Positions 18,439 through 64,000 of a DNA stretch of 64,000 nt are shown here, in pieces. Each line of letters begins with the position of its first letter. Position 1 is the first letter of the stretch. This DNA comes from Echinarachnius parma. Taxonomy: Eukaryota > Echinodermata > Echinoidea > Clypeasteroida > Echinarachniidae. The stretch is taken from positions 51,751 through 115,750 of the forward strand of contig JBAMJV010001303.1 of the NCBI GenBank assembly GCA_037951105.1, given 5' to 3'. Below the pieces are notes generated by a model. That model was not told the origin of the DNA. It did not search any database and was given only the letters and a program-made list of their open reading frames with translations. A program made the position numbers and the translations under genes.

Positions 18439-20621
18439 CAGTCAAACCTGTCTTAGCGGCCGCTCAAGGGAAACTTGAAAAGTGGCCGCTATAGACAGGT
18501 GGCCGCTATAGACAGGTGGCCACTATAGACAGGTTGGCGGCCATTTTTTTTAAAAGCACAAACATGATTAATAATAATTAATATCACATGTACACATGAA
18601 CATAAACAACATGTACATTTATATATGAAATAAAAAGAACAGAACCCTGGATACTTGTCTTGTTTTTTGAGTAATTTGTGTGATTAGTGATGAGAAAATA
18701 ATGAAAAGTACGTGTAAACCTTCCTAAAGAAATCTACCATCGTCTGTTTGGCCATATGTCGTTCGCTTTCATTGAAGAAACAAATCTTGATCTCCCGACC
18801 GGTGATGCAATGCGATCGTGTGAATCTTTGCCTGAACACAAATGCTGTTACGTAAAAAAAATATTTTTGATTGAAAAAAAAAAGTTCTAGAAAATACGAC
18901 GATGAAACGAAAAGTTTATAAACGCAGTAAAATATTCGTTATAACTTTATTAAGAAGTGTTTCAATTTGTATGCCTCCGCCAACGAAGTGGCCGGAGGCA
19001 TTATGTGTTTGAGTTGTCCGTCCGTCCGTCCGTCCCGTTTTCGTTCTCGCAATATCTCAAGAACCAGTTGACGGATCAATTTCAAACTTGGTATGAGTGT
19101 ACATATTGGGGTGACAATGATCTGATTAGATTTTAGGGGTCACGAGGTCAAAGGTCAAGGTCACAAGTCTCAATATATATACAAAAATGCCTCGTTCTCG
19201 TGATATCTCAAGAACTGGTTGACGGATCAAATTCAAACTTGGTATTAGTGTAGATATTGGGGTGGCAATGATCTGATTAGATTTTGGGGTTCATGAGGTC
19301 AAAGGTCAAGGTCATAGGACACAATGTATGTGCAAAAATGCCTCGTTCTTGCGATATCTCAAGAACCGGTTGACGGATCAATTTCAAACTTGGTATGAGT
19401 GTACATATCGGGGTGCCACTGATCTGATGAGATTTGGGGGGTCATGAGGTCAAAGGTCAAGGTCACAGGACTCAATATGTATGCGAAAATGGCTTGTAAT
19501 GGCAAAATTTCAAGAACTGAATGTCACATTTCAATCAAACTCGGTACCTGAATGTATCATAAAGAGTCAAAGTAGCCATAAAATGTTGGGGTCATGAGGT
19601 TGAGGTCAAGGTCACGGGACTCATTATACATGCAAAAAAGCTTGTAATGCCAAAATCTCAAGAACTAAATGTCAGATTTCAATCAAACTTGGTACCTGAA
19701 TTTTTTTTAGGGAGCCATATATGGTCAAGGTCACAGGACTCAAAATGTATAAAAAATATTTTTAAAAATTAAATCAGTGCATGTTAATTTGGGCTTGATA
19801 TTAAAATCGCGTGATAGCGGAGGCATAATTTTCGATTGCGCGCAATCGAAGATCCATCTAGTTAAAAATGTTTCGCAAAGAAAAATAAACATTTAAATGT
19901 ACGAGGCTATACAAACTGGTTTAAATCCGATCCGGTCCGATCCCCAATACGGCGAAAGTGCGTGAATTGTGTTGCATGATCAAAGCCCCTGCGCTGCCGC
20001 TGCAGTCTAGCGGCCAGCGGCCATGCCAGCTACCAGCGCTCAGCGATCGATAAACCACGGAGCTAACAATGCATGCATGAACAATAACACGGATGTTCAG
20101 CCAGCGCGCTAATCTTGGATACCCGCTAATCTCAAGAAAAGCTCGCATCACGGAAACAATGCGTGAGTAAAAATGGAGCAGTCAGCGGACGAGGTAAACA
20201 AAACAAACGGCCATTTTAGGCTTTTAAACTTGACATTCATTATTTAGGCGGCACTTTTCCAAAGCTATAAAAGGGTAGATCTACAGCCCTAGACTATGGG
20301 TATATTGTTCGATAAGCTTGGCTGCGCTGCAAGCTCGCTTTCACGGCAAAGTATACCAGCCACATGATAATCTCCATGGCTATGCATCGGAAAATAACAA
20401 ACTTGCACGCCCGCAGTTACGGGCAAACCGAAAATTGATGGCCGGTATTGCCGGTAAAAAAATGAGTTTGGGAATCCAAATCCGTGGCCGCTGGCCGCGT
20501 TAGGCAGGTGGCCTCTATAGACAGTGTTTATAACACTGTATTTTCCTCGGGGGGAATTCTATGTGGCCGCTAAGGGCAGGTGGCCGTTATAGACAGGTGG
20601 CCGCTAGTACAGGTTTGACTG
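18439..20621. mobile_element. 2.18 kb TA-flanked non-autonomous element with subterminal repeats
   Basis: Inverted ends CAGTCAAACCTGTC and GACAGGTTTGACTG, flanked by TA at 18437-18438 and 20622-20623. Both ends hold repeated copies of GTGGCCGCTATAGACAGG, at least two in each. No transposase frame is present. It splits copy 2 of the RCC1 exon 1, which proves the TA duplication. A CCTCCGCC/GGCGGAGG-type repeat lies inside it. Confidence 0.8.
18970..19862. repeat. Internal tandem-repeat element (GGAGGCAT type) inside the 2.18 kb element
   Basis: It opens with TGCCTCCGCCAACGAAGTGG and closes with GCGGAGGCATAATTTTCGAT. Between them a unit of roughly 170-190 bases recurs about four times, each with ATCTCAAGAAC, GGTTGACGGATCAA, TTCAAACTTGGTA and GAGGTCAAAGGTCAAGGTC. 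It is non-coding and includes (CCGT)n near 19020. Confidence 0.75.
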
Positions 20622-20776: not shown

Positions 20777-21074
20777 ATGGAAGTTGGTGAAAACTCGGCA
20801 CTCTCGGAAGCAGATGATGCCATCTCCGACTCTGTTCCAGAGCCCGGCGGTCATCTGCTGTCCTGGGGCTGCGGCGAGTTTGGCCAGCATGGACACGGCG
20901 GGAGCGGGGACGATGTGGGTCCAGACAAGGCAGCTTTGTCTCTGGAAGGCCTCATTGGACTATACCAGGGTCAGGGCCAGGCTAATTCATTGTCCAAGAT
21001 CCCAGATACGGACTTGGGTACCCACCATATCAGATTTGTGGCCTGCGGAGCTAGCCATACTGCAGTGGTAACAG
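20777..21074 (+). CDS. RCC1-repeat gene exon 1 (start codon, residues 1-99)
   Basis: The ATG at 20777 starts an acidic leader (ENSALSEADD) and the first blade, HLLSWGCGEFGQHGHG to ACGASHTAVVT. The exon ends ACAG before GTAATC, one base into a codon. Another ATG at 20763 is in a different frame. The region 20730-20830 is the third and only intact copy of a duplicated segment, so the true 5' boundary of the exon is not fixed. Confidence 0.85.
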
Positions 21075-24000
21075 GTAATCATTATGTTTGCTGGCGGTGC
21101 TCGTAATCATGGGGGTGGTGACTGTGGTGTTGATGGTTGTGGTGGTTCTGTTGTTTAAGTGACAATGATTATATGATGATAATGATGATGGTGGTGGTGA
21201 TGGTGGCGGTGGCGGTGGCGGTGGCGGTGGCGGTGGCGGTGGCGGTGGCGGTGGCGGTGGCGGTGGCGGTGGCGGTGATGGAGATGGTGATGGTGATGGT
21301 GATGGTGGTGTAGGTAGTAATGGTGGTAGTGGTTGTGATAATAGAATAGAATGATGTTTCAAATCTTGGTTTAATTTTGTTGTTGGTGATGGTGGTGGTT
21401 GCAGTGGTGATGGTTGCTGTAATTGTTGGGGGCAATGATGGTTGGTGATGGTGGTAGTGGTGAGGTTGGTGGAGACGGTGGTGATAGTGGTGATTGAGGT
21501 AGTGGTATTTGTGGTGGTGGTGGTGGTGGTGGTGGTGGTAGATTATTGATGATAGGTTGTGTTGGTAGTGGTGGTGTTAGTGTTTGTGGTGGTAGTTGTG
21601 ATAGTGGTAGTACTAGTGATAGTGGTAAGTGTGGTGATGGCGGTGTTAATGGTAATAATGCTGGTGTTGATAGCGATAGTTGTAGTGTTAGTGATAATGG
21701 TATGATATTAGTTGTGGGAGGATAATCAAAGTGACAGCGGTGGTAGGGGTGGTAATGATAACTTAGTTGCTGTGTTGACTTTGATGGTGACATATTGGTG
21801 TGTGATGCTACCAATACTGAACTTTTCATTACACTTTTCACTACCATGGGTGAAAAACGATGTGAATTGAGCTCTTTCTTTGATGAGCACTATGAAATGT
21901 ATAAATGTAGTTTAGTAGATTACCATGCTCTTAATATATTTGTTTCTCTTTCAGATAAAGATGAGGTCTGGACATGGGGTAATGGCAACAGTGGCCAGTA
22001 AGTATATCCACACTTCGTCGGGTAAGAGTGAGAAGGGCATTAAGTCAATATTTGGGTTAATTGAGTTACACATACAATCTTGGAAGCCGGAGCCTCCTAG
22101 GACTACATGATACATGTTCAGATCATAATTATTTAAAGAACATTCCACAGATATGTGAGAGAGCTTCATTGGTTTCTACATGGCTTTCAAATTGTATACG
22201 TGATTTAAACTTGATGAGGTCAAAAAGTGAATTAATTAGCGCCCTTCTCTCAACTGGCTACTTGTCTCATCAAGATTGCAGCATCAATAATTACACTTTA
22301 AAAACTTCGTAACTAACAGAAATAATGTTTTTTTCCATACACGCCCTAAATTCTCATCAGTAGCACATGTTTGTATAATTTTAGTTGCTAATGTTTGTTT
22401 TGTGAACATTTGGAGTAACTACAGTACATGTATGTGTAGCACCCAAATCACCCAAATAAGGGTTTTCATATTTGCCTTCACTTGTTTATCATACATGTAT
22501 TTTTTTCCATTTTCAAATTGAGGTTAGAATTAAAAGGGCAAGCATTTGAAAGTTAACAATCATCCATGTTATTTGCCTGAGTTATATTTTGGGATGTACA
22601 TCACCAGCACCGGTCTAGCAATTCGGAAGTCTTGGGTTCTAATTTCAATTTCCATTTTTTGTTGCTTGTTTTTATTTAGTTTCTCATATTTGAATTGTTA
22701 AATTGTATAATTTGTTGTATCTCAGACTTGGATGTGGAGACAAATTGACGCACGCCTCCCCACAGAAGCTGCAAATAGGCCCCCACGACTCACGAGTGGC
22801 TGGTGTCGTATGCGGGAGCAGACACACGGTCGTCTGGCTTGAGAATGGACGCGCATTCAGCTGCGGGAATAACTTCTACGCTCAACTCGGCTACGACTTC
22901 CGGATTAAGAACTACAAGGAAAATCAGGTTTGTAATATTTTCCTAATGAATGACAGTTCAAACATACTGATCAAAACACTTTTTACATAATATTGTGCTC
23001 TATGATCGTTGAAATATTGTTGAAAAAACCCAACTATATCTTGCTGCTGATGGGGTTCCTAATTGGAGGTAGATACTCCACCATCTTGTGGGACAAGTGA
23101 TGTCTGGTAAAGTTGTGGCTCGGGGGCTCGGGGCCCAGGGCCCAGGAGTCCTCTTCTATCTACACCACTGGCTATGACTTTTTGTGCCAAGAAGTATGAT
23201 GTTTGTCTTCGAAGGTTTCCATGGCGATGTACATTACTTGAAGAGGGAGTTTACTGACATACACCAGATATTGTCCCATATGTTGGACAGAACATACTGA
23301 TCAATACATTGTGCAGTGAGTGAGTGGTTTATCCTCTTTAGGACCACTACTCTGCCAAGAAACTTGGCCAGGTCTATGGAGAAAGCCTGTCATACCAACA
23401 TCACATACAGGGCTCCACACCAACCTTTTTTGTCAGTGGCCCAGTCGGGCCGAGTGAAATAATTTCTTCCCTTTTTCTGGTGGCCCGAAAGAAAAATTTA
23501 CTGGCCCGAAAAGTAAACTTTTTACTATTCAAAATTCTTATTCTCTTTCCTGATCAAACCTGTGATTATAGATGAAGCATGACATGGAAGAAACCAGATT
23601 TTTCTAATTTTGTCGATGTCGGGTTGAAAATATGCTTGCCCAATCGGGCCACCAAAATATGGCTTTTATACATTTTTGCTGGCCTGAAGTGCAATTGTAC
23701 TGGCCCTGGGCCAGTGGGCCAGTGCAAGTGTCGAGCCCTGTGACATATAGACTTCAATGGGTTAAACTTCCTCCTGTAGTATTGTGTTCTGAAGTGATTC
23801 ATCTCTCTTTCATCCAATATATGCCGTCAACATTTGTGACTGGATATAGCAAAACCCTGCACTTGTCGGTCAAAAAACAAAATTAGGTCAATAATTGACA
23901 AACATATGTTTGTTTCAATGTTGAAAACATAAGTCTTTAACACACATCATGTGAACTGACTTAAAATGCCAATTTCTTAAAAACATGAATTACTGACAAG

Positions 24001-27000
24001 TGCAGGGTTTTGCTATATCCAATCACATTTGGTCACCAGATACTCATACAAAGTACATTGTAAGTTGATCATGATTTATGTGCAAAGTTCAACATATCGA
24101 TGACTTACTGACTCACCGGGCATTATTGAGATTCTCTTGTGACTATGTTGTACTTTGCCACTTCAAAGTCGAGACAAAAAAAAAAAAAACTATTCTGCTC
24201 GTCTGATTTGTATTTAAACAATGTCTGTATTTGTTTGTATTATCTCAATACTTTTTGTTTAAAAGCTCTTTAAAAAATGTATTACAAACAATTATTATCC
24301 AACTTTATAATACAATATTGAGCATCTGGCTTAACAAATACAGGACTATGCACGTTGCTATTTTGGATGAATCAAACTGGAGGATATAGCCTAAGTGTTA
24401 TCTTACACTTATTATCTTCACTCCAAATGCCATAATTTGTTTTCATTCAAATATATTATAATGTCAAAAGTTTTCTTGCAAATTATTTAACCATAAAGAA
24501 ATTAACCAGGTATATGATTGTATTGTACTTCTTGGAGGTACTTGTACTCCTGAAAACCAGGTCACCTGTAACGGTTTAATCATTCACCCATTCAAAACTG
24601 GTTTAGAATATATACTCGGGCTAAGGTCAATTGAGGATGCATGTTGAACCCAAAATCAGCTAGTCTCGAATGAGTTAAATCAACATCTTTGAGGATCAGC
24701 TCGGGTTTACATTGTATATCACAACCAATGGCACCTTTGCTCTTGTAAACAAACTTGTTCTTGCGATTAGAATTACCTGCCTGGATTTGACTATAAATAC
24801 AAGAATAGTATTACAATCTTGAGTAAATACTGATAAAGATTTAATCAATACCCTTTGATATATGATCCTCTTTAAAGGGGAAGTCCGCACTACAAATCTC
24901 TTGTTCGTTATATGAAAGAATGGCATGTTAATATACCCAAATCATTTGGTCTTATAACCCATTGACTACGGGAACAGGGTGGGCTGTGTACAAACTCTAT
25001 GGGGATTTCAGAAACTCAAAGGGAATGGGTTAAACAAGTTAATTTCATCATGATCAAATGAACTGCCACTGACATTATATGCATAAACTGTTGTCATTTA
25101 TAGGCATTGGCCTAGCCAATATTATTTTCACAAGAATTAATTTCCATGTAATATTTTGGGTGTTTCACTCTAAGGATTCAGATTTTGAACAGGTGTGGAA
25201 GGAGCGTCTCATAGACCAACTGACCGGCCGTGAGGGTTCCATCGAGGTACAGATGATGTCTTCATTCTCCTTATATGCAGCCCTGCCCCTCCCCTCCCCC
25301 TCCCGCCCGCCATCCCCATGCTTTAAACCTTAAATTAGATGGAGTATATGTATATATATACTTGTGTATGTTAGTGAGGGACTGACTAAATCTAACATAA
25401 TATATTATTTTGTTTCAAACATAGGGGAAACTGACCAGGAATATATACAGTATTTTATAAATGAAAATGAGCAAAGAAATATCCCAGAGATATCCTATTT
25501 TTTTTGCTCATTTTCATTTATATATATTATTTTGTTTATATAATCCTTTGTAAATAGGCCCCATCCCTCCTCTTGTTACCTACATGTAGCTCTACCCAAC
25601 CACTCCCAATTTATATGGTTTGTGATTATATCTGAATTATCCTGTGAAAACAAGCTCACATATGTTCCAACTACCCCCCCCCCCCCCTCCCACCTCCCTC
25701 CACCATAAGGGGGAAAAATCCATTCTAACCTGACCCCAAATATGTAACTGTTAACCCCTGGCCTATAGAACCTAATGCGCTCAGTATACCGTAAAACTTC
25801 GCCTATAGGCGCTACTATCTCACAGTATTAGCAGGTATTAATCAACAGCCCCAGCCGCGTCCACAAGGATCTAGTATAATGAATATGTATCTAGCCCTTT
25901 GTCAACGATCTTCGAGCAGGTCTTAATGAATATTCATGATAGCATAATCATGTAAAGTTGAGACAACCCTATTGAACCAGTACCGCCTATAGGCGAAGTT
26001 TTACGGTATAAGGTACCCCAATGCGCTCAATATATACCCTGTTGGAATGTAATAAAAAGATTATTAACCCCCTTGGAATGAAATACTTATTATAGAATGC
26101 ATTAGAGTCTAATTAGACTTAGCCCTTTAGAAGTAAACCCCTTGTACTCCCTTTGCCCAAAATCCCAACCCAACCCCGCAATTAAACCATATTGTAACCC
26201 TTTCAACCATGTAGCAAGAAACGAACAAGGTTATGCGCCAATTATTGCTTCTACTGGTGCAGGCATCTGGTTGGGGATGCTCTCTGTGGAATAATGATCT
26301 GTGGAATGAAAAAGTGCACTTTGTGTGCCTTATACATTGATGATTGCATCAGTTATATAACAATACAAACTTTGTGAATTTGGTGGAAAGTAAAATAACA
26401 AATAACCTTTGTTATAAAGGATGACTCATAATGTAACTTTATTAAAATGAATGACACAACTTTATGTAAAAGCCATCCATAATTCCAGTATTTATCCTAT
26501 AAAAAGCTCTTATAAATGAATGGTTGTTTCAGGTTCACTCACACTATTAACGACTGGATATTTTTCAATGTTATTATTATGGGAGTTTGTTACTATAAAG
26601 CGCTACATGTACTGCATTTAATGTTATCTATTTCCATTATTATTATTATTGCTGTTATTATGCTTTAACATTAAAGGACATTGTTAATATTCATGTAGCA
26701 ATCTTTAATCATCCACTATAGTTATTGTAGCATATATGTGACAGACAGTAATTCCCTTGCATCCCCTCCAGTCTTCCAAATGTGCAAATTCATGACGGAT
26801 AAAGAAGGAAACGGAAGAGAAGCACACCTTAAAGGGTACCACCACCCAAATATAATATTCTTATTAAAGAAAGGTAACATCTTTAGTATTCCATTCCATC
26901 AACAAGTTCACAAAAATATGTTTCCAGAAAAAGAAGAAAAAAAATTGGAAACGCATCACCATTCTAAAGCATGCGTTCATGCGGTCTGAATTGCGAAGAC

Positions 27001-30000
27001 TGCGATGTGTGCGCGTGAATTGCGATGTACGCAGAGCGAACGAATAGCCCGGGAATCTATTGTCTACAAACGTACGCGTGAATAGCATTGGCCCACTCGC
27101 AAATGGTTGGCCCGTATGGAACCAGGAAATAGTAGTGGTTCCGTAAGTGGTGGAAATTAATTGCTTTCTTTATGAATTACACAACCCTTTGCAAAATGTT
27201 GGGTATCTATTTGATATCACAAAACGGTACCAAAACATATAATAATGTGTTGTTCTTTGCCTGGTGGTCCCCTTTAATAAATCCTGCCGCCAAAAGCTTC
27301 CATATCACCAATGTTATCAGCATTCTGCTAATTTCCCTTGCTCTTAATTGAAAGAAAATTGTTATTTATTGAAGTGTCAGAGTTGAATTGTTCTGCAAAT
27401 ACATGTAGTCTTCATAGTTGAGTGTCTCATATAATCATTTAATTGAACCCCTTATCTACAAGTCTGCATGGTCATAATTTACATTGCAAAATGTATGTCG
27501 TTTGTAATAAACCTTAGCTTAGCAATGCACTTCAATAAATAATGTTATCAGCCTCGTAATGATTTAGCTGAACCCCTTATCTATCAATCTGGTCATAATT
27601 TTCATTGTAGTTTTCAATGGTTAGTAATTATAAACCGCTTATCTGAACAATTGATGCATAATATTGAAGGTCTCAATGTACATGAAGTAGTGCTCCTTTC
27701 AATCAAAGTTTAAACATCTAGAGATATTGCAGTCTCTTAAACAGTGTTCAAATTGTAATTAGTTGTTCCAAAGTAAATAGTTGTTCCAAAGTAAATAGTT
27801 GTAATTAGTTTTTATATAATATAATAAATTTTCAAAGCTAATAATTTGTATGTCTTTTATGTTGATATAACTTGAAAAGTTTAAACATCTATATATGTTG
27901 CAGTCTCTTAATAATTTCAAAAGTAAATAGTTGTAATTAGTTTTTATTATATAATGATGCAAAAATACTGCTGCAAACTGCTTATCTACTATAATAATGC
28001 CGGGTAATAAAATGAGAGTCAATATAGGGCCTAAATTTTCGATCCTAGCAGAATCTTCTTCAGAGGCTATAAAGTGACGATAATACAAACAGAAACAACA
28101 TGTATATACAAATATACATGTAGGTACACATGCTAAGAAACTGAGGAAGGGGGTGGAGACATGGAACAATGAAAGGGCTGTGAGTGGCCAATCAGACTAG
28201 GCTGGGATTGGAGGAAATGCACACAAAGAGGATGTTATGTAACAAGGAGCAAGGTGTTGTTATTATATAATGTAATAAATGTTCAAAGCCAATAATTTGT
28301 ATGTCTTTCATGTTGATATACCTTGAAAAGCCAATCAATGTTATGATTTGTATATATATCAATGACGTGTAAATAATTTGAAAAGTCAGTAATTGTAATG
28401 ACTTTGATATCATGATTTGTTTTTGTTTACCCTTTGCCTCAATGAACCAGATGTGGCATGAGTAAAGTGTATAGAAATTGTATTATTTCCGGGCTCAAAG
28501 TTTGCACTGGCCTGCTGAGACAAGGGGGCAGCTAAGGGCCCGATTACGGACCAGCAATATTTACCATGGTAATTAGCGTCATTGGCTCTAACTCATCGAT
28601 GTCAATCTTCTAGAATAACATACAAATCAACAGACCGTAGCATATAGCACACTAACGCCTTTACTCATTCAACAGTAAAGGATTACACAAGCATATCTAG
28701 AGATCAGTGGAACTAGGGCTTGGTCATGATCGTGCTCTCGGCCACAGGACACCAAAATGAGCTCTATAGGACTGTACAATGTTTTCATGCCAAATTTTGC
28801 TTGGGCAAATAAACTAAACAATGTTCTATGTTAACTTTTTCTTTGATCTCTGCCATCAATTCCTATTTTGAGTCAGTAAGACTCATGATACTGTATATCT
28901 TGCCCGACATGGCAACCATGGCAAAAATTTAGTTAAATATGAAATTATATTAATTTTTTTCTTTCTGACCAGGTACTTCCACATTTACTGCGACCCATAA
29001 TGCAGCGGAAGGTCACCCAGGTGGCGTGTGGAGAGAAGTTCTCCCTCTTCCTCTTCGACTCTGGTCATGTTGCAGGCTGCGGGTAAGATGCATGATCTGT
29101 TTAAATGTATTTTATATAGAAAAATAGGCTTCGTCAGAGTTTTCTATTATAGCTCAGCTGGTAGAGCACCATTCTAGCAATCCAGAGGTCTCGGGTTCGA
29201 TTCCCGGCGAAGCCAATTTTTCTTTGCTCATTTTCAATCTTTTAAAATGTTTCTAGTCAGTTTTTAAAAAGTATGCATAGGGAAACTGACCAGAAGTACA
29301 TAATGTACATGAACAATAGCAAAGAAAATGGGGTTTCTTCTGGATTTGAACCCGAGACCTGATTGCTAGAACGGTGCTCTACCAGCTGAGCTATAGAAAC
29401 CCCTGACGCCGTGTTTGTCCCTGAAATCCCTTGGTTGCTCGTGTTGGTAAGAAGCTATTATAAACCCAGGTTTTTATATTTCTGAGCTTAGATATAACAT
29501 AAAATATGCCTTTAAAATATGTATCAATACTATCAGAACATATAGCAAGTGAATATAAGGAAGGTGAGTAAGCTCAGTTGGGAGCGTGACTGACTTAGAC
29601 ACGGGGGATCCCGGTTCGAATCCAACCATCGGACAATGTGTCTTTTATTACGCAATCAATTTGAGCTTACTCTTGTGTGTTTTCGGCCTTCTCCGTGCTT
29701 CCTATGCAGGAAAGGACTCTGATAGGACCGATAAATGGAAGTCCTGTGTATGAGACAGTCAGACCTCATGTACGCTAAGAACCTAGTCTACTTCTCAAAA
29801 AGAGTAGTGTTAACCCGATTGACTAGTAACCCCGCACATCACCCCTGAAATACTGCTAGAATCTACAGAATTGAAGGAGGTAGTTCAATACAAAGAAGAA
29901 GAAGAACAATTTTGGATATGGATTTGGATATGGATAAGGAATCTCTTTATTAATGAAATATGTTTTTAATTTTTTTGTCTATTACAGCAAACTTACTGAT

Positions 30001-33000
30001 AGTTTCATTAGACAAGTGTAATAATTCTTCTTCTAGGGCTAACAATTTTGGGCACCTGGGCAACAGAGCGAGAACTGAGGTGGTAATCCCAAAAACTCTA
30101 GAACATCTTGAGCACATTACAAGTTATTAAAAACATTCTCCTCATTTAAGGTAGATGTCTTTGATTATTCGTCTACTAGGTCTAACAACTTTAGGCAGCT
30201 GGGCAATGGTGCAAGAGCTGATGTACTGTTCCCACCAAACTTCTGGAAGTTTGCAGATACATAACAAGTTATTGATAAGAAATGTTTGACTGATGGACAG
30301 TTTTTTAATTTAATTGCTAATTGCAGTTTCATAAGCATTGTATTCTTCTTCTACTAGGGCTAACAACTTTAGACAGCTGGGCAATGGTGCAAGAGCTGTT
30401 TTTTTCTTCTCAAAACTTATTGGAGATGCCGTACCCATTACAAATCATTGAAAACAAGTCTTTTAATTATGATATAGATGTTTTTAATTTCATTGCCTAT
30501 TGGAAAGAAATTTAACACTTTTACATAATATGAAATGCTATTCCTCTACTAGGGCTAACAATTTTGGGCAGCTGGGCAACGGGACAAGAGCTGAGGTGGT
30601 GTCCCCCAATCCTCTGGAAGATCCCGAAGACGTTGTCAGCATCGCGTGTGGATCTTGTCACTCACTCGCAGTCACAGGTATATACACTAATAATTGTTAT
30701 GAGGTAGTTTTATTTCAGATTGACACATGTGTTTAAATTTGGAATAGATTAAAATTTCATTTAGAGTTGTGGTGGTGTCCTCCAAAGACATTGACAGCAT
30801 CGAGTGCGGATCTTGTCACTCTCTCGCAGTCACAGGTATTTACACTTATAAAACTAGTCCGTTATTAAAGGGATCTAGTAACTTTGTTGACATGTGCAAA
30901 AAGTGGTGGATGGTTGATGCAATGTATATTGTTGTTATCTCATATGTGCACAGGGTATTGTGTGAAAATTTCAAGTCAAATGGACATTGTATGGCCAAGT
31001 AATGAGCGAAAATGCAAAGTGATATTCAGTAACTCACTGCACTCACTTTGTACATGGAAGAAAAACTCGCCCGGAGTTTTTCTTATCTGAATACTTCAAT
31101 CATACATATCTTTGTAACGAAAGGGAAATTTGAAAAACCGAAACCTGTCCCATGATTTTATTGTTAGTACGAATACAACAAGGTATAATGGAACCGCTAG
31201 AATTAAAAGTTTATTTTTAGGATTTGAACAATGTTACTAAGTCCCTTTAAATAGATGGTTTGGGGATTACGTTAAGATAGCTAAATTAATTTCAGATTGA
31301 TATTTAATTTTGGAACAGATTAAATTTCCATAATTATGAGCTGATGAGGTGATATCACCCAAACCTCCTGAAGATGCTGAAGACATTGTAAGCATTGTCT
31401 GCAAATCTTGTCACTTACTCAGTCACAGGTTTATACACTTATAAAATTAGTCTGTTATTAAAATAGGTAGTTCTGGGATTACTATTGACTATTGACATTG
31501 GGATTTGATTTTAGACTGATATTTAAATTTGGAGTTTTTGGATGGTCATGATGGATGATGTAAAAAAGTTATGCAATATTGTGACTGATTAATTCAGTTT
31601 TAGATTATGCGAGGATTTGCGTAATGTATGATTAGTTATTAATTATACAGAGAAGCAGGCACCTGGAGAAAAACAAAGTTATAATGTCCAATAGTTAGGC
31701 AATATTGCTGCATTCTAATTCAGTATTGAACTTGCACACTGTCATAGAGTTAGGCAAAAAAACATCTCCTCGTCCGTATTCCACAACCTTAGGAGGATTT
31801 GACCTTGGCGGCAGGTTATTAACCTTGGCCCGGAGATATTTTCCATAATGCACGGGTGATTATGCCATATCAAGTACGGCCTGGGGGACCCCTATTACCA
31901 CGTCTGTCCAACCTCGGTTAACCCCTGACAAATCGAGACAAAAACTACTCTCTGGCCTGTCAGGAATTTTTTTCCCCCTTCTAATTGATGCTGTATGTAC
32001 ATACATGTACATGTATGCAGTATTTTTTTTCTTCAAATGCCATATTTGTGGAGTATTTTTCTAATCTTCTTCTCTCCTCTCTAATGCTTTACTTGCGACA
32101 ACTCCATACCGCAGACGTTACTGCCCGCGAGTCTTGCATTCTGAAGTACGTGGCCCGGCTATTATTGCGGAAGAGAATTCATAATCGTTATTAAGCGACA
32201 ACATTAATGCATACATTATGAGTCAGGAACATTCAAGGGCTTTTAGAATGAGGCAGACACCGAGGGATATACATTATATACACTCGATGCGCGTTGGCTC
32301 GAGGTGAATACCCTCTCGACAGACACCCAATTACCATAAAAAACTGATGAAAATAATTACTTTAGCTACATTGGTAAATGTGGTAGATCTAATGAGAAGG
32401 GCTGTTCATGCAATGTATCGTCTTGCAACAACATGCCATGTACTCGTGTTCATATTAACTCTTTCAAAAACTTTGTTTGTGGAAGAACATGCATTCTTAA
32501 GTCATTGGCGAGAGTTTCTTCGGGACCAGTCATGAATGGGTTATTTTAGATATATGTAGATCTTATGAGAAGTGCTTTTCATGCAATGTATCAGCTTGCA
32601 ATAACATGCCATGTACTCATGTTCATATTAACTCTTTCAAACCATTTGGGTTTTGGAAGAACATGCATTCTTAAGTCATTGGCGAGTAGATCTTACAATA
32701 ATTTAAAAATAATATACTTGATTCATATATCGCCTTATATGATTGATAATCATCTCTAAGCGCTTTACAATGATATAGTATTACCCCGGTCATAGGATAC
32801 AATGCAAACCAGCACACATTGTGTGCACCATCTCCACTCCCTTACTGGGGAGCATTCCTTCCAAGCGGCTCATGGGCATTGAGAAGGGTTTCTTGTATCA
32901 TCTCACCAACAACATGTCATGCACCAGAAATACATATACATATATATTAACCCATACAAGACTACTTGATATCACTCTAATGCCAAGGTATCTTTGGGAC

Positions 33001-35198
33001 GGGTTCTGAATTGATTTTGCTGATTGATTTATTTATTTAGTCTTTTTTAAACAGGGTCGACCCATCTGTGATCTGGTGTTGTTTTCCAATTGGGGTCCCG
33101 GTGGGTTAATACTTATTGCAAAACAAAATATTGTCTTTTTAATATACTTGTCATTTCCAGCCCAGACGAAGAATCTGCTAGATTCGATAGCTCGGCTGCT
33201 TATGGCCCGGTCAGATATCAACGGATATCGGAAACGTATGCCCAACGAATAGACAATTGGCAAAATTAAATTATCCGGTGATGAAAGTCGTCTCCATTGC
33301 TTCATGTACAAAACATAGCACAACGTACATCACCGGACAAGGAACGGACAAGAATCGTATAGAACGGATGGAAAATTTAGTTCTCCGTTTGACATCCGTT
33401 TGCGCAATCCGTTGATATGTGACCGGGCTATTACTTTGACTCATTTTTATTACACTAATTGACTTCATAGCGGATAAGCAGTTTTCAGCATTCTTTTGAC
33501 ATTTATTATCTTTTTAATAGAAATAGTGAAATGTAATTTTCGTATAAATAATCAGGATTTGTAATCTGTCTGGGTGATCTTGGATTATGATTGTCAAAGT
33601 TTTGAAGTGAATGATAATAATCATACCATTCCGTTTGCCAAGCCTGAGTGTTCCCATGAATTGTCCTGAACAGTTTAATTATCCTTCTTTCTTTTTTTTG
33701 GTGAAACTTAGTTTCATAATTATAATATGTTCAATAAGTTGGTCTGCGTCGGTGTGGTGAAATAGACAAACAAAACGTTAATAAAAAACACTGTATGAAA
33801 ACATAGTTATGAAAACTATGTTTTCAAAACTATGTTTTCATACAGTATTTTTAATTAATGTTTTGTTTGTCTATACAGGGTGGCCCAGAAATAACGGAAC
33901 GGGGCACTTCCCAAAATAAATCAACGAAATGACTGGGTCCATCGGATAGTGTGTCTTTTCAAATGAAAATTGATACCAAGAACATTAATTTTGGTCGTGT
34001 AGTTTTTGCTTTAGAGCGCTGTGAGTGACACTATGTCAGGGTTCATTTTTCTTCAATTTTGACTGACCTATTGGCTAAAGAATGACCCGAACGGCTCGTC
34101 ATAGAATTACGGTGCTGTGGCTATTCAGTCGAATGCACACTAACAAAGGTGTCCGCATCATTGTGCATCGTAATTCTATGACGAGCCGTTCGGGTCATTC
34201 TTTAGCCAATAGGTCAGTCAAAATTGAAGAAAAATGAACCCTGACATGGTGTCACTCACAGCGCTCTAAAACAAAAACTACACGACCAAAATTAATGTTC
34301 TTGGTATCAATTTTCATTTGAAAAGACATACTATCCGATGGACTCAGTCATTTCGTTACTTTATTTTGGGAAGTGCCCCGTTCCGTTATTTCTGGGCCAC
34401 CCTGTATATAATATACATGCCTAATAAGACACATAATCATTTTGATGTCATTTTAGTTGTCAAACCTACATCTTAGAGGCCACCTGTCTATATAGCAGCC
34501 AACCTGCATGTAGTGACTACTGAAAGTGATTCCCTGCACAGAAAAACAACAACAATTTAAAGGGAACATTGTCCAAATCCTCAAAATAAAAATTTAATTC
34601 TAGCGGTTCCCTCATACCTTGTTGTATTCGTATTAACAATACAATCATGGGACCGGTTTCGGTTTTTCAAATTTCCCTTTCGTTACAAAGATATGTACGA
34701 TTGAAGTATTCAGATAAGAAAAACTCAGGTGGAGTTTTGAAACCGTGTACAAAGTGAGTGCAGTGAGTTAGTGAATATCACTTTGCATTTTCGCTCATTA
34801 CTTGGCCATGCAATGTCCATTTGACTTAAAATTTTCACAGAATACCCTGTGGACATGTGAGATAACAACAATATACATTGCATCAACCCTTCATCACTTT
34901 TTGCACATGTCAACAAAGTTACTAGATCACTTTAATGGAACATGTCTATAGATGTCACCTGTCTATAGTGCCCACTTTTCTTGTTTACCCTCTAGATGGT
35001 CACTATATACAGGTTGGACTATACTAAATAATTTACACATTTTTAAATCTCTAGCATCGGGCGAGCTGTATGTTTGGGGTCTCGGTAGGGCTTGCGGAAG
35101 TCGCCGTGACGACGTGTTGACGCCACAACGCAAGACAACCCGACATAGCAACGTTGTTGGTGTGGCAGGTGGAAGTAGCCACTCCCTAGCTTTAACAG
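20777..35198 (+). CDS. RCC1-repeat (RLD beta-propeller) protein, SERGEF-like, 7 exons, apparently incomplete at 3' end
   Basis: RCC1 repeats fold into a seven-bladed propeller used by guanine-exchange factors and by ligase or trafficking adaptors. Seven exons join in frame: 20777-21074, 21955-21997, 22726-22927, 25193-25246, 28973-29082, 30553-30677 and 35055-35198, giving 325 codons plus one base. Blade motifs in order are LLSWGCGEFGQHGHG, then VACGASHTAVVT, VWTWGNGNSGQLG, VVCGSRHTVVWLENG, SCGNNFYAQLG, VTQVACGEKFSLFLFDSG, GANNFGQLGNG, IACGSCHSLAVT, ELYVWGLGRACG and VAGGSSHSLALT. The alternation of WG..GQLG and CG..H(S/T) marks RCC1 repeats. The ASG...WG.G.A.CG.R stretch in exon 7 resembles SERGEF, but the N-terminal blade does not fit it cleanly, so no symbol is given. 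The last exon ends in a valid donor, yet no intact exon for the remaining two blades is seen to the right edge. Exons 1 and 6 have decayed duplicate copies nearby. Confidence 0.88.
21180..21760. repeat. (GGTGGC)n and GTG-rich microsatellites in RCC1 intron 1
   Basis: A perfect GGTGGC hexamer run lies at about 21200-21276, followed by GATGGT units and a long GTGGTGATG-type stretch. Together they fill most of the intron between exons 1 and 2. Confidence 0.95.
21955..21997 (+). CDS. RCC1-repeat gene exon 2 (residues 100-114)
   Basis: A 43-base exon after TCTCTTTCAG, ending CCA before GTAAGT. It encodes KDEVWTWGNGNSG and two bases of a glutamine completed by exon 3 to give SGQLG, so the RCC1 motif is split by the intron. 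It is supported by phase and motif, not by length. Confidence 0.9.
22605..22690 (+). repeat. Fragment of SINE family 1 in RCC1 intron 2
   Basis: CAGCACCGGTCTAGCAATTC and GGAAGTCTTGGGTTCTAAT match the 3' half of the tRNA-like head; the A box is lost. It lies 35 bases before RCC1 exon 3. Confidence 0.6.
22726..22927 (+). CDS. RCC1-repeat gene exon 3 (residues 114-181)
   Basis: Two hundred and two bases after TATCTCAG, ending CAG before GTTTGT. It encodes LGCGDK, RVAGVVCGSRHTVVWLENG and AFSCGNNFYAQLGYDF, completing one blade and starting the next. Confidence 0.92.
22928..25192 (+). other. RCC1 gene intron 3
   Basis: Contains the CAGGGCTCCACAC element, a pair of inverted AGTGCAGGGTTTTGCTATATCC and GGATATAGCAAAACCCTGCACT blocks (about 23843 and 24000), and a short AACCCATTC-family copy near 24587. 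No exon found. Confidence 0.6.
23406..23742. mobile_element. CAGGGCTCCACAC / GTGTCGAGCCCTG element
   Basis: Inverted ends ACAGGGCTCCACACC and AGTGTCGAGCCCTGT. Interior has GTGGCCCAGTCGGGCC and GGCCCTGGGCCAGTGGGCCA. Fragments of the same family recur at about 610-800 and 56205-56312. Confidence 0.6.
25193..25246 (+). CDS. RCC1-repeat gene exon 4 (residues 182-199)
   Basis: A 54-base phase-0 exon, VWKERLIDQLTGREGSIE, between TTTTGAACAG and GTACAG. It carries no RCC1 core motif and would form an insert between the third and fourth blades. The call rests on matching phase, higher GC than its surroundings and consensus ends, so it is less certain than its neighbours. Confidence 0.7.
25799..26006. 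mobile_element. CCGTAAAACTTC-ended short element
   Basis: Ends CCGTAAAACTTCGCCTATAG and CTATAGGCGAAGTTTTACGG between TA dinucleotides. Only 208 bases. It lies in the RCC1 gene intron between exons 4 and 5. Confidence 0.78.
26833..27273. mobile_element. TTAA-flanked element, family B copy 1
   Basis: Starts AGGGTACCACCACCCAAA and ends CTGGTGGTCCCCT between TTAA at 26829-26832 and 27274-27277. Shared interior: GGTAACATCTTTAGTATTCC, CATCACCATTCTAAAGCATG and ACAAACGTACGCGTG. Lies in the RCC1 gene intron between exons 4 and 5. Confidence 0.8.
27720..28400. repeat. Diverged direct repeats in RCC1 intron 4
   Basis: CTAATAATTTGTATGTCTTT with TGTTGATATA.CTTGAAAAG recurs at about 27838 and 28290, and AGTAAATAGTTGTAATTAGT at about 27788 and 27922. 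About 300 bases of unrelated sequence (27975-28250) lie between. AT-rich and non-coding. Confidence 0.65.
28973..29082 (+). CDS. RCC1-repeat gene exon 5 (residues 200-236)
   Basis: One hundred and ten bases after TTTCTGACCAG, ending GCTGCGG before GTAAGA. It encodes VLPHLLRPIMQRKVTQVACG and EKFSLFLFDSGHVAGCG, closing one blade and opening the next; its last two bases join the G that begins exon 6. Confidence 0.92.
29125..29270 (+). repeat. tRNA-derived SINE, family 1, plus-strand half of an inverted pair
   Basis: TATAGCTCAGCTGGTAGAGC, CTAGCAA loop, GGGTTCGATTCCC, then CTTTGCTCATTTTCAATC and TTCTAGTCAGTTTTT. GGCTTCG at 29127 pairs with CGAAGCC, but with about sixteen extra bases before the D arm. 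Confidence 0.75.
29280..29403 (-). repeat. tRNA-derived SINE, family 1, minus-strand half of an inverted pair
   Basis: On the minus strand GGGTTTC and GAAACCC pair as a 7-bp acceptor stem around TATAGCTCAGCTGGTAGAGC, CTAGCAA (AGC) and GGGTTCAAATCC. A few bases are missing from the variable region and the T stem is mismatched, so a functional tRNA is unlikely. Tail CTTTGCTATTG and TTCTGGTCAGTTTCCC follows. Confidence 0.75.
29564..29915 (+). repeat. tRNA-derived SINE, family 3
   Basis: TAAGCTCAGTTGGGAGCGTG and CCCGGTTCGAATCC are A- and B-box-like; a long unrelated body follows and ends in an (AAG)n tail near 29900-29913. Immediately upstream of the RCC1 exon 6 array. Confidence 0.7.
30037..30130 (+). 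pseudogene. Decayed copy A of RCC1-gene exon 6 (5' part)
   Basis: A TTCTAG acceptor is followed in the correct phase by ANNFGHLGNRARTEVV; the 3' half with the CGSCHS motif is gone and the frame stops at 30128. No donor is visible at the expected place. Confidence 0.82.
30180..30264 (+). pseudogene. Decayed copy B of RCC1-gene exon 6 (5' part)
   Basis: After the acceptor CTACTAG the frame reads SNNFRQLGNGARADVL, then loses similarity and stops at 30262. The conserved glycine of NNFGQLG has become arginine. Confidence 0.82.
30358..30451 (+). pseudogene. Decayed copy C of RCC1-gene exon 6 (5' part)
   Basis: After CTACTAG the frame reads ANNFRQLGNGARAVFF, sharing the glycine-to-arginine change with copy B, and stops at 30449. 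Its upstream intron (TTTCATAAGCATTGTATTC) resembles that of copy A, so the repeated unit includes intron sequence. Confidence 0.82.
30553..30677 (+). CDS. RCC1-repeat gene exon 6 (residues 236-278), intact member of a six-copy array
   Basis: One hundred and twenty-five bases after TCTACTAG, ending GTCACAG before GTATAT. It encodes ANNFGQLGNGTRAEVV and DVVSIACGSCHSLAVT. It is the only copy in its array with an acceptor, a complete open frame and a donor, and its phases fit exons 5 and 7. Confidence 0.93.
30764..30835 (+). pseudogene. Decayed copy E of RCC1-gene exon 6 (3' part, donor kept)
   Basis: Reads VVVSSKDIDSIECGSCHSLA and VTG in frame, ending CACAG before GTATTTACAC, the same donor context as the intact exon. 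The ANNFGQLG half is missing and there is a short deletion after the VVVS. Confidence 0.82.
30869..31246. mobile_element. Family A copy 2, inserted in the RCC1 exon-6 array
   Basis: Opposite orientation to copy 1. TTAA at 30865-30868 and 31247-31250. The paralogous intron after array copy F (31451-31465) has the same flanks with a single TTAA and no element, so the insertion is dated after that array unit was duplicated. Confidence 0.88.
31338..31428 (+). pseudogene. Decayed copy F of RCC1-gene exon 6 (3' part, donor kept)
   Basis: Begins at GAGCTGATGAGGTG and follows the intact exon through CCTGAAGA.GCTGAAGACATTG to TCTTGTCACTTACTC and CACAGGTTTAT. A codon-breaking deletion before the donor and a changed cysteine context disrupt the frame. 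Its downstream intron matches that of copy E. Confidence 0.8.
32383..32695. repeat. Tandem duplication of about 173 bases
   Basis: GTAGATCT at 32383 and 32556 starts two colinear units sharing TTCATGCAATGTATC, ACATGCCATGTACTC and GCATTCTTAAGTCATTGGCG. Non-coding, in the RCC1 intron between exons 6 and 7. Confidence 0.85.
33205..33429. mobile_element. GCCCGGTCA-ended inverted-repeat element
   Basis: Ends GCCCGGTCAGATATCAACGG and CCGTTGATATGTGACCGGGC. About 225 bases; non-coding. Target duplication not resolved. Confidence 0.68.
33771..33874. repeat. Palindrome immediately left of the 529-base element
   Basis: Arms TAGACAAACAAAACGTTAAT and ATTAATGTTTTGTTTGTCTA around CATAGTTATGAAAACTATG. The right arm runs directly into the TACAGGG start of the next element. 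Confidence 0.7.
33876..34404. mobile_element. Near-perfect 529-base palindromic element, copy 1
   Basis: TA-flanked; ends CAGGGTGGCCCAGAAATAAC and GTTATTTCTGGGCCACCCTG. The two halves are reverse complements for most of their length around a short centre near 34135. Tc1/mariner-type MITEs often start with CAGGGTG. A second copy is at 58027. Confidence 0.85.
34561..34931. mobile_element. Family A copy 3
   Basis: TTAA at 34557-34560 and 34932-34935. The left end lacks about ten bases (AGGGAACATTG instead of AGGGACTTAGTAACATTG). It sits inside a CAGTCAAACC-family relic spanning roughly 34456-35023. Confidence 0.75.
35055..35198 (+). CDS. RCC1-repeat gene exon 7 (residues 278-325)
   Basis: One hundred and forty-four bases after AAATCTCTAG, ending TTAACAG before GTATTT. 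It encodes ASGELYVWGLGRACGSRRDD and NVVGVAGGSSHSLALT, one full blade. The donor implies at least one further exon in the same phase (one base carried over). Confidence 0.9.
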
Positions 35199-35918
35199 GT
35201 ATTTTCTTTTGTTTTATTTCATCTATTTGCCAGTTTTCAGTGATTTACGTAATAATATAATATGCAGAGGAAATTTTTGCTTTGCATTCACATTGAACGA
35301 TAATTGGTCATAAAGAATGAATATATTAAAGCAAATTAATTCAGAAAAAGGGAATTTATTTAGAGGACTGTAATATTGTAGAAGACTGAATTATATATGA
35401 TTGCTGAGAATGTCACATAAAGCAGAATTATTGATGGCATGACCACTTTATTTAAGCAAACCACTTGTCAGATTAGCTTTAAAAGTATGATCTTATAAGA
35501 TTAAGATTCATCAATAAACCTTTTAATTACTTAACAATTTTCTGATTAGCATATACATGTATAGTGAGCAAGCCTGTATGTGTAAGAATGTGTTTGTTTG
35601 TATTTTTAATGCGAGTGTGTAATTGTCTGTACAATATGTAAGTTTGATTGTGTGTTGCGTGTAGGTTTACAGAACTGGAAACGGATTCATCTGATTGTTA
35701 TGTCACTTACTATTTTATTGTTGGCCATGCGGTTTTCTAAGATATTTCAGTTACATCAATAAAATTAGGCATACAGAATAATCTTTAGTTTTGTCTTGCT
35801 TGGAGGATGTCCCATTTCCAAACTGCGTTCATTTGTTTTTCTTGATACCTAAGTTGATTCTTATCCCTCAGGGTTTGTGTCTGATTTATCTAGCCTCTGA
35901 CTTGTATGAGGTTCTAGC

Positions 35919-39600: not shown

Positions 39601-39829
39601 TGCTATCGCGATGTTTTTCTCTTTAATTTCTTTAACCCTATCCATACTGTTCTTGAAAATACATGGGCTGTGGTGTATGGGGAATGCATGTTGCACCAAC
39701 ACTTGATGGTCTCGAATGCAGTGGGTTAAAAACAAATACAGCAATCATCTGTACATGCGTGTGCTGTGTTGCGCCTTTTCGTGTTTGAGTAAAAAGTGGT
39801 CAGGTTACCCTGTGGATAAACTCATTTAA

Positions 39830-40207
39830 AGGGACTTAGTAACATTGTCCAAATCCTGAAATCCAATTGGAATTCTAGCGGTTCCCTCATACCTTGTTGT
39901 ATTCGTATTAACAATAAAAGCATGGGACGTGTTTCGGTTTTTCAAATTTCCCTTTCATTGAAAAGATATTTACGATTGAAGTGTTCAGCTGTTAAATTAT
40001 TCACTGGACCGTCAAAACCGTGTTCAAAGTGAGTGCAATAAGAATAGTAAATATCACTTTACATTTTCGCTCATTTCTTGGCCATATAACGTCCATTTAA
40101 CTTGAAATTTTCCCACAACACCCAGTGTACATATGAAATAACAACAATATACATTGTATCAACTACTCATCAATTTTTGCACTTGCCAACAAAGTTACTA
40201 GATCCCT
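39830..40207. mobile_element. Family A copy 4
   Basis: Starts AGGGACTTAGTAACATTGTC, ends AGATCCCT, TTAA at 39826-39829 and 40208-40211. Same internal blocks as copy 1. Confidence 0.78.
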
Positions 40208-40458
40208 TTAAGACTATTTGATCTTGGTATATCATGCATCCTCCATAGACTACAGCCTGAGTAATTTCAGTACATGCAGTCCTGAATGGATTAAGATAAC
40301 CCCCCCCTGGAGAAAATATGATATCAAAACCAATTTTCCAGGAAATTCTTATCCTTGTGGGATAAATTCCAGCTGGTTAAATGAGGATGTGAGGAGTCAT
40401 GTTATACTACGTTATATGAACATTTGGGAATATTGCACTCCTTTAATCCGTACACTTA

Positions 40459-45974: not shown

Positions 45975-46315
45975 TATGTGCAAAAATTGACAAAGGGTTA
46001 TCTATAAAAAGTGTATTTCTGTGATATGATATGTCCACTGATAGATGTGTGAAAATTCTACAGTAAATGAATGTTATTTACCCCCGTAATTAGCTAAAAT
46101 GCAAAGTGAATTTTGCGTACTCATTTCACTAACTTTGTAGACAGCTGAAAGACTCCCAGGGAGATTTTCAAATCTGCTCACTTCAATCATAAATATCTTT
46201 GTAACGAAAAAGAAACTCGGAAATGCAAACCTATTCCATACTTCTATTGGTAATACAGATACATGTACATGTACATCAAGGTATGTGAGAGAACTGCATG
46301 CTAGAGTTCTATTAA

Positions 46316-49613: not shown

Positions 49614-52252
49614 TGTATTTTTCCTGTCTTGTCTATAACTTTTTGAAAATCAGCTTTTGCTGAAAGGGCTATCCCATCCATTTGTGGAAATAAATAAACA
49701 GATAAATAAAATTAAAATAAAATCTAGGCTTTATCTTAATTTTTTATAAACTGCCCTTTTTTCTCAAACCTTTCTTCGTTATTCTCCAACCTTTCTTTAA
49801 TTTTTCTCAACCCTGTCACGTTTATTTACATGTATTCACTTTGTCTCTCATTTCTACACCTCGACATCCATCACCATCACCATCTCCATCTCATAATCTC
49901 CGCTACTAGGTGAGAGATACAGCCTTCAAGAGATTAAGACGCTGTATCGATTCCACCACCTCAGAATTAGTCATCAAATTGGCAACTCTTTGATTCGCCT
50001 TAAACCCATTGAAAATGTGGTGTACCGTGTATTAATAAACTCTATGGGAAATGCAACAAAATCTTGTAGGCGAGGGGTTAAGAACTCCTGTCGGACTAGA
50101 TGGAGTGGGATTGGAGTGCTGTTTGCGTTTTTCTCTTAACATGGTATCTTGTTTTATGATTTTAGAGTTGTGAAGGAAGTGGTGTTTATTTTATTTTTCT
50201 TGCTTTGCAATATAGTTTCTTGTTTTCTTCAGTATAATGTGTGAAAGAAGTGTTGTGTATAGTTTCTTTCAACATTGTTCATGCTTTATGCTTCAAGGAA
50301 GTGTTGTTTGTTTCTTCTGTCAACAATGTTTCTTGTTTTGTGGTAAGCTGTGAATGAAGCGTTGAATGATTTCTGCTTAATCGTGGTATCATGTCCACTC
50401 TGAATTACTCAGTACAGCATACAAGATGTGTACATTTAAATCATCGTTTGTTGGTGTTTCAACTTCTCTGTTTCTAATCTCAATATTTCCTACCTCTAGT
50501 TTTGGTATAGTGAGCTACAGCATAAAGTAGACACTGCGATGAACATTGTATTGCACTGAAGTTTGTTAACTCTTTCACGGAGTGAGGTGCGTACTGTTCA
50601 TGCCTTTTCAATGGAAATTCAGTACTACTGACATGCCTGTAAAGAGTACAAATACTCTTTGATATAATTGTATGGATGTAAGCTTGCTAAGTGTGTTGTT
50701 ATTGTTCTTTTATGGCAATCAGTCAAAGGTTACTATTGTTGCCAATTAAATATCTCTTCATTATTAAAAAAAAAAAGAAGTCATATATTAACAAAATAAA
50801 TTACAATAGCACCGCTACGAGTATTGCAATATTTTTTTCCTTCAGCAATAAATGTCATAATTGCATTTCTACAAGAATATGGTGCAGTGGAGATTAATAC
50901 AACTTTACATAAGACAAGACAAGATAAGATGATGAGGAAAATATATAATTTCATGGAACTGTTTATGTCTTTATTTACCATCTCCCACTCCCAGTGGCAT
51001 GCGTTGCACGGCTACCTTGCCCGTTTCAATTTTAATTGGTATTGAGAGCTTCGTTTTAATCAAAATGACTAATCTGTCGGCCGGGAACTAATGAATTGTA
51101 ATCTAGAGGGGGAGTATTTTTTTTTCGAAGGCGGGAATTCTGTGTTACATTCGCATTCTTCGGTTACACTTGATCATTCTCAACATGGCTGGTTGGCAAC
51201 ATCACACGCCAACTCACTGTCCAGGAAAAATGGTAATTTGGGCAGCGATCCCTGTGGAAGGGTAATTTCAGGTGTTCGGTCATTCATATCAGTGGTGTAG
51301 CATGGTCTGCCTGATTTGGAGGGGGGGGCGCTTTCTGTATGTATTTCTTTATTACATTATTTCCTCTTTTATTGATTTTTGTCAAATTATAGAGCGGGCA
51401 TGTACCCCTTATGCCCCCCTTCCTGTAGCTATGCCACTTATCTATATGTTGGAGACACTAGCATCGGCAAGAGGATTGTTTCAAACGAGATAGGGGCATT
51501 GGTGAGTCTTGTATTTTGGATGAGGGGACACAAGTTACGTAGATATTTTAGATGTTGGGGGTCGGTATGTTAGGCACCATTGTAAGAATTATTTTTCATG
51601 AGGGACTCCTGTGGGGGTAAATATTTCCCCTCCAGGCTCAACTATGGCTACGCCGTTAGAGGGGGGTAGTGCATTGCGTGGCATTGCATGCACGGTTCTC
51701 GAACCCTGAGCCAGTGTCGCCGAGCCGCATTGAATTCCACATCGAGTAAGACAACGCATCGCCGTGACAACTACACCCGTAAACTAGCGTCAATTTAGCC
51801 ACGAGACCCTCCTCTCGCTGTCACTCTCCCCCTCTGTCGTTCCCTCTCTCTATCTCATCCCGTTTCTCCCTGTCTCTCCATTCATGCGACCAGAGTGCCG
51901 CCTGATGTATCGCGCCCGCGGCCGTAACAAACCAGCGTGTGCAACGCGATAGGTCGGCCTTTTCTCTCTCTCCCATCTCGCGCCTCGTGTTGCGCCCGGC
52001 GGAGTGAACAATGCGTCACCCCGAGAAATTTGAAGGAGTGCGGTGCTCCGGGGCTATTGATCAGGCAGCCTTGACTGTCGTGCATGACCTTGGGTGACCC
52101 CACCTTGTCACATGCTGCATTCGGTCGTCGTCTCTCTCTGTCCTTAGTTACGATCTTTCTCTTAATTTTCTTACTCTCCCCTCTCTCCTTAATCCCTTTC
52201 CTTTCTTTCTCTCTTTTTCTCTGTCCCTCTTTTTATCACTTTCTCTTTCTAA
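49614..52252. other. Intergenic or intronic, no gene seen
   Basis: The 50.1-50.4 kb part has loose GTGAAGGAAGTG.TGTTT repeats and the 51.7-52.2 kb part is GC-rich then CT-rich. The exon-like stretch at 51430-51500 has no recognised motif, so nothing is called. Confidence 0.45.
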
Positions 52253-52908
52253 AATCAGTCTCCCTCTGTCGATCGGTCTCTCTCTTTCGCTCTTTCTATC
52301 TATATCTCTATTTTACCCTCTTCTCTTTCTTTTAATCAGTCTCCCTCTGTCGATCGGTCTCTCTCTTTCGCTCTTTCTATCTATATCTCTATTTTACCCT
52401 CTTCTCTTTCTTTTAATCAGTCTTCCTCTGTCGATCGGTCTCTCTCTTTCGCTCTTTCTATCTATATCTCTATTTTACCCTCTTCTCTTTCTTTTAATCA
52501 GTCTCCCTCTGTCGATCGGTCTCTCTCTTTCGCTCTTTCTATCTATATCTCTATTTTACCCTCTTCTCTTTCTTTTAATCAGTCTCCCTCTGTCGATCGG
52601 TCTCTCTCTTTCGCTCTGTCTATCTATATCTCTATTTGACCCTCTTCTCTTTCTTTTAATCAGTCTCCCTCTGTCGATCGGTCTCTCTCTCTTTCGCTCT
52701 TTCTATCTATATCTCTATTTTACCCTCTTCTCTTTCTTTTAATCAGTCTCCCTCTGTCGATCGGTCTATCTCTTTCGCTCTTTCTATCTTTATCTCTATT
52801 TTACCCTCTTCTCTTTCTTTTAATCAGTCTCCCTCTGTCGATCGGTCTCTCTCTCTCTTTCGCTCTTTCTATCTATATCTCTATTTTACCCTCTTCTCTT
52901 TATTTTTT
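52253..52908. repeat. Tandem repeat, 81-base unit, eight copies
   Basis: AATCAGTCTCCCTCTGTCGA starts units at 52253, 52334, 52415, 52496, 52577, 52658, 52741 and 52822. Spacing is 81 bases except one of 83, where a CT dinucleotide was gained. Pyrimidine-rich on the plus strand. Confidence 0.96.
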
Positions 52909-63927: not shown

Positions 63928-64000
63928 TTAAACTTGTAAGTTGGTTAATTTCTCGGAAAAATATTGCGATCATATATTTTCCCCCTGTTGACCCACATTT

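Follow-up and report, generated by a model that had tools for sequence, protein, structure and literature searches.

Partial tandem copies of one exon, apparently in two nested arrays, in an RCC1-like gene of Echinarachnius parma

The 64,000-nucleotide stretch of Echinarachnius parma DNA analysed here (the window) carries an RCC1-like gene on the plus strand, for which six exons were found with GT-AG borders and matching phases. Their joined product is 307 residues long without a stop and contains Pfam RCC1 repeats in four stretches (PF00415, E = 2.7e-45) and an RCC1-like domain (PF25390, E = 2.7e-56). The nearest solved relatives of this product by sequence are UVR8, then HERC1, HERC2, and RPGR (35 distinct sequences, E ≤ 1e-5). 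The first coding exon found (20777–21074) was placed by splice phase, open reading frame, and Pfam match, its start ATG being our own choice, and the second (21955–21997) and third (22726–22927) by splice phase and open reading frame. The latter two kinds of evidence also place the next exon (28973–29082, donor cgg/gtaaga), which precedes the array described below and was called exon 5 in a preliminary description of this DNA, as well as the exon after the array (35055–35198), which additionally has a Pfam RCC1 match. A crude pattern search found no exon beyond 35198, its one match, at 61829, being implausible. A scan of viral contigs with the protein of this gene as query returned a single distant locus, in viral-collection contig IMGVR_UViG_3300047548_000098 (L001 1823–3131), encoding an RCC1-like protein with 28% identity.

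Between these last two exons lies an intact exon of 125 nt (30553–30677, plus strand), supported by splice phase, open reading frame, and Pfam. Its frame is open from ANNFGQLGN to CGSCHSLAVT, it completes the split codon at either end, and it closes with the donor cag/gtatat; the exon borders given previously agree with these splice phases. Searching the whole window by blastn with 30541–30690 as query, in two runs whose identity and E ranges are both covered by the values given here, revealed five partial copies, all in tandem on the same strand and reaching into the adjacent intron. Numbered along the plus strand with the intact exon as c4, these are c1 (30025–30107/30118; 78%–81% identity, E = 1.6e-17 to 5.4e-17), c2 (30168–30249; 82%, 1.6e-17 to 3.9e-16), c3 (30346–30398/30431; 74%–87%, 3.5e-13 to 1.1e-12), c5 (30782–30846; 89%, 1.1e-19 to 1.5e-16), and c6 (31345–31439; 79%, 1.3e-18 to 2.8e-18). 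The count of one intact exon and five broken copies proposed earlier is thus borne out, all five matching well above chance. Other matches with E ≤ 1 were a 23-nt piece belonging to c5 (30763–30785, E = 0.025–0.061), 28 nt on the minus strand (25355–25382, E = 0.16–0.31), and, in the second run only, part of the next RCC1-repeat exon (35151–35202, E = 0.003). The same query run against the species' own genome (1.2 Gb, 14,790 contigs) gave five stretches among the matches listed, namely the intact exon, c5, c1, c2, and c3, all of them at this locus; c6 was absent from these matches, which represent the best-scoring candidates only.

The alignments also confirm that the three upstream copies hold the acceptor with the 5′ part of the exon, and the two downstream copies the 3′ part with the donor. 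The copies c1, c2, and c3 consist of acceptors ending at 30036, 30179, and 30357 followed by exon nt 1 to ~82–86, and c5 and c6 of exon nt ~34 to 125 continuing into intron 6. The pieces do lie on opposite sides of the intact exon, as had been described, but they are not halves, since they overlap, the upstream ones covering exon nt 1 to ~86 and the downstream ones ~34 to 125. Likewise, an array is present at 30037–31428, the extent first given, but its true span is larger, at ~29926–31533. Similarity is not limited to the splice site and a few codons: upstream it spans the acceptor, ~82–86 exon nt, and ~100 nt of intron 5, and downstream it reaches ~110 nt into intron 6.

The repeated unit upstream comprises intron 5 from about −110, the acceptor, and exon nt 1 to ~86, and is present four times, the last including the real exon. 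Within approximate boundaries, the unit of c1 occupies 29926–30122 (intron-5 tail, acceptor, exon start at 30037, exon nt 1 to ~86), that of c2 30123–30267 (exon start at 30180, with a 2-nt insertion in the exon part), and that of c3 30268–30443 (exon start at 30358), all on the plus strand, and alignments place the intron-5 part of the fourth, with the functional acceptor, at 30444–30552. The left flank and exon part of c1 align with the intron and exon of c4 (29930–30118 versus 30447–30634, 71% identity, E = 1e-23 and 4e-21). All three upstream junctions (c1 to c2, c2 to c3, and c3 to c4) have a common join of ~20 nt, family D6, in which exon nt ~86 is fused to intron 5. At the first junction this join reads ACATTACAAGTTATTAAAAA, and the other two are 85% and 80% identical to it. 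At these joins neither the 3′ part of the exon nor intron 6 could be accommodated. On the simplest reading, the likeness of the three junctions means that c1–c3 never held the 3′ half or a donor, and it points to copies that were already truncated when they formed.

The downstream unit comprises exon nt ~34 to 125 and ~110 nt of intron 6 and is present three times, the first being the real exon followed by the head of intron 6 (30678–30760). Sequence alignments place the remaining parts on the plus strand as follows: c5 at 30761–30835, with an internal 18-nt deletion and the donor cag/gtattt; its intron part, interrupted by an insertion and resuming at 31251–31338; c6 at 31339–31428, with a frameshifting 2-nt deletion and the donor cag/gtttat; and the intron-6 part following c6 at 31429–31533, where homology ends at TTTAAATTTGGA, ~20 nt short of the expected breakpoint. 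Both c5 and c6 start at about exon nt 34, after common intron-6 sequence, the position of the join being approximate. The downstream copies had been described as lacking acceptors; AG sites do precede c5 and c6 (at 30718 and 31295), but within intron-6 sequence. With the insertion set aside, the intron parts of c5 and c6 are identical at 80 of 99 positions, with a score of 46 against a maximum of 21.5 in 500 shuffles.

Repeat comparison identified the sequence inserted into the c5 intron part (30865–31250, plus strand) as a MITE-like element of ~386 nt that resembles TTAA-flanked (piggyBac-like) MITEs in its length, its terminal inverted repeats, the TTAA at both ends, and its four near-full copies in the window. 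The three near-full copies elsewhere are at 34550–34936, 39824–40211, and 63527–63931 (91%, 83%, and 60% identity to that in the array, respectively), and a partial copy is at 45976–46263 (72%). The wide spacing of c5 and c6 is explained by this element sitting between them.

Several other repeats were observed in the window. Intron 5 contains two tRNA-like sequences that face one another as an inverted repeat (29132–29408), one of which was called by ARAGORN (29330–29401, anticodon unclear) and neither by Rfam at the gathering score, as well as a third tRNA-like stretch recognized by eye only (~29566–29637). Beyond the array, intron 6 has a direct repeat of 131 nt with 90% identity (32383–32512 and 32556–32686). 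A satellite-like repeat of 151 nt in about four copies lies at 19041–19694, and an 81-nt unit is repeated in tandem 8.6 times with 94% matches at 52204–52906.

No relation was detected between the intron parts of the two sets of units. Nucleotide profiles built with nhmmer from the intron-5 and intron-6 spacers (three members each) recovered their own seeds at E = 1e-13 to 1e-20, by construction, and no cross-match between the two was found in either direction at E up to 100. Against the intron-5 profile, the short stretch separating c1 from c2 reached only E = 1.6, although in pairwise alignment it matches the spacer after c3. Judged from these alignments, there are two nested tandem arrays here, one upstream and one downstream, rather than one. 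A candidate intron segment common to both flanks of the exon (30447–30494 and 30719–30761), which would have favored full-length units, was rejected, its p value of 0.026 being one among 12 spacer comparisons and the segment being absent from the profile searches either way; one other of the 12 gave a low value (sp23–sp45, p = 0.042), and the remaining ten were at least 0.07.

The locus very probably arose when one exon was twice partially duplicated in tandem long ago, the duplicates later being multiplied and then decaying, and thus by ordinary partial exon duplication. Points against this reading are the likeness of the c2–c3 core described below, the poor match of the short c1–c2 spacer to the intron-5 profile, and the early end of homology in the last downstream unit. 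The founder of the upstream array would have copied the stretch from about −110 in intron 5 to exon nt ~86, and that of the downstream array the stretch from exon nt ~34 to about +110 in intron 6. Unequal exchange is the simplest means by which both would later have been multiplied, and the earlier proposal that duplication recurred within this exon and its introns is supported by the units, their junctions, and the alignments of their intron parts. The closest upstream pair is c2–c3, with 41 of 174 positions differing in sum, against 37 of 142 for c1–c2 and 44 of 143 for c1–c3. The copies would then have decayed through stops, frameshifts, and indels and are probably not used in splicing. The MITE-like element would have entered the downstream array afterwards, since it is found in no unit other than that of c5 and has diverged by 9% from its nearest copy, compared with 20% between c5 and c6.

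The placement of 5′ pieces before the intact exon and 3′ pieces after it had been regarded as striking, a judgment that our analysis does not sustain. A tandem duplication running from intron 5 to a point inside the exon necessarily leaves a first copy cut at its 3′ side and a second that continues into the intact exon, and one running from inside the exon into intron 6 leaves the intact exon first and a second copy without its 5′ side. Among enumerated random duplications with one end within the 125-nt exon, 56,901 of 57,334 (28,394 + 28,507) gave the observed layout; by the logic of the script, the remaining 433 have their end exactly at an exon edge, so that neither copy is broken. As a simple tandem duplication can produce no other arrangement, the polarity is uninformative about splicing.

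Divergence among the copies was compared between exon and intron parts. For c5–c6, differences amounted to 11 of 54 exon and 19 of 93 intron positions. For the upstream pairs, with each copy cut together with its own downstream spacer, the acceptor and 5′ core differed at 14 of 60 positions against 23 of 82 in the rest for c1–c2 (p = 0.57), and at 16 of 60 against 28 of 83 for c1–c3 (p = 0.46). For c2–c3 the figures were 7 of 60 against 34 of 114 elsewhere (p = 0.008 uncorrected; 0.05 against the spacer alone; scan p = 0.08). Exon and intron rates therefore appear similar in three of the four pairs of broken copies, with c2–c3 borderline. When the units were first phased by cutting before the intron-5 part, the acceptor and 46 exon nt, a core whose boundaries were picked after the pattern was seen, were more conserved than the flanks in five of six pairs by Fisher's test (p < 0.05, lowest 1.8e-5) and likewise in five of six by a scan test (lowest 2e-4). 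Core conservation as a sign of function was lost for c1–c2 and c1–c3 and became borderline for c2–c3 on re-cutting, which took in these three pairs; the three pairs that include the functional exon stand in the first phasing only. We read the conservation in the first phasing as mainly an effect of phase and alignment, and partly as probable constraint on the functional exon.

A different signal was obtained from the first 15 codons, where Ks exceeded Ka in all six pairs (Ka/Ks about 0.2–0.7; for example, Ks 0.62 versus Ka 0.22 for c1–c2 and 0.16 versus 0.11 for c2–c3) and the 15 variable columns fell 6, 1, and 8 at codon positions 1, 2, and 3. The excess of Ks and the scarcity of changes at the second position hint at coding constraint, and we count them against reading the copies as relics. 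The excess of Ks can be explained if the functional exon repeatedly served as template for new copies, and we suggest that some of the differences among copies arose in the functional exon between one duplication and the next, both offered purely as proposals.

The constraint signal also bears on whether c1–c3 serve as decoy or poison acceptors, into which exon 5 would be spliced so as to bring in a stop after 28–31 codons and lower the level of the RCC1-like protein. As stated in the preliminary description, each of the three upstream copies, if spliced in, brings a stop in frame (at residue 32 for c1, 29 for c2, and 32 for c3), and a stop likewise results if the acceptor of any of the three is used with the real donor. 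All three keep an AG and a pyrimidine-rich tract, and in c1 a possible donor (aag/GTAGAT) would close a pseudo-exon of 114 nt containing the stop. The excess of Ks over Ka in the 5′ codons and the somewhat high likeness of the c2–c3 core add to this side. Nevertheless, we consider such a role unlikely, as it is not unusual for short open frames to survive at this divergence (the chance of open 5′ frames in three copies was 0.23–0.59 at the divergences tried, in a model without indels, though c2 carries one) and the acceptor core shows no excess conservation in c1–c2 and c1–c3 in the second phasing. No candidate donor scored at least 3 in 30060–30540 on a rough matrix, but this hardly counts: the real donor itself scores only 2.5 (and that of c6 −2.4), so these scores do not discriminate. 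That the tandem decoys would form a dose-setting ladder, the copy number of broken pieces tuning the output of the RCC1-like gene through premature stops, is very unlikely indeed. If the upstream copies turned out to be spliced in, the locus would offer a test case for decoy acceptors.

It is also very unlikely that the array is what remains of six full-length tandem exons, once mutually exclusive, that lost their halves afterwards. The exon length of 125 nt does agree with such an origin, in that a transcript including two copies would be thrown out of frame, a feature of many mutually exclusive clusters. However, the upstream junctions are alike and fuse exon nt ~86 to intron 5 with no space for a 3′ half or intron 6, and the intron parts of the two arrays show no relation in the profile searches. 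Loss from full-length exons would have had to remove the same part in parallel from three neighbors and the other part from two, and an early deletion before amplification would be indistinguishable from partial duplication. Published criteria for mutually exclusive exons include similar length, the same frame, no in-frame stop, and both splice sites for each alternative (PMC5740500). Our locus resembles the clusters described there in its adjacent homologous exon sequences and in an exon length not divisible by three, but it has no alternative with similar length, an open frame, and both splice sites. The earlier idea of mutually exclusive splicing is not supported, as none of the five extra copies has an acceptor, a full open frame, and the exon's donor, which makes such splicing impossible with the present copies, and the shared junction points to upstream copies that were truncated from the outset. 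Nothing was found in favor of an assembly artefact or chance likeness around splice sites, and either is barely credible given copies that diverge by ~11%–35%, each with its own indels, a MITE-like element inside one unit, and copy E values of 1e-12 to 1e-19.

Partial tandem duplication, the reading we prefer, belongs to a known kind of event. Tandem exon duplications, unannotated copies included, have been surveyed genome-wide (PMC9013439). As in the cases presented in such work (PMC9013439, PMC9741552), a coding exon and flanking intron have here been copied within their own gene, and unannotated exon-like copies were sought there by a similar similarity search; in contrast to those cases, the copies here are partial, represent different overlapping parts of the exon, and carry stops and indels. 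Tandem duplication that turns coding sequence into intron likewise has breakpoints inside an exon, whereas the piece duplicated here covers parts of both exon and intron and does no more than make existing introns longer. In the literature searched, which left out most subscription journals and included passages of PMC9741552, PMC5740500, PMC2891723, and PMC5896119, no description of this layout of broken exon copies was found. We file the locus as a further case of partial tandem exon duplication. It illustrates the rule that a tandem duplication with one end inside an exon always puts its broken copy on a predictable side, upstream for a 5′ piece and downstream for a 3′ piece. Scans for exon arrays should expect this polarity, and repeat units should be compared in more than one phase before constraint is inferred.
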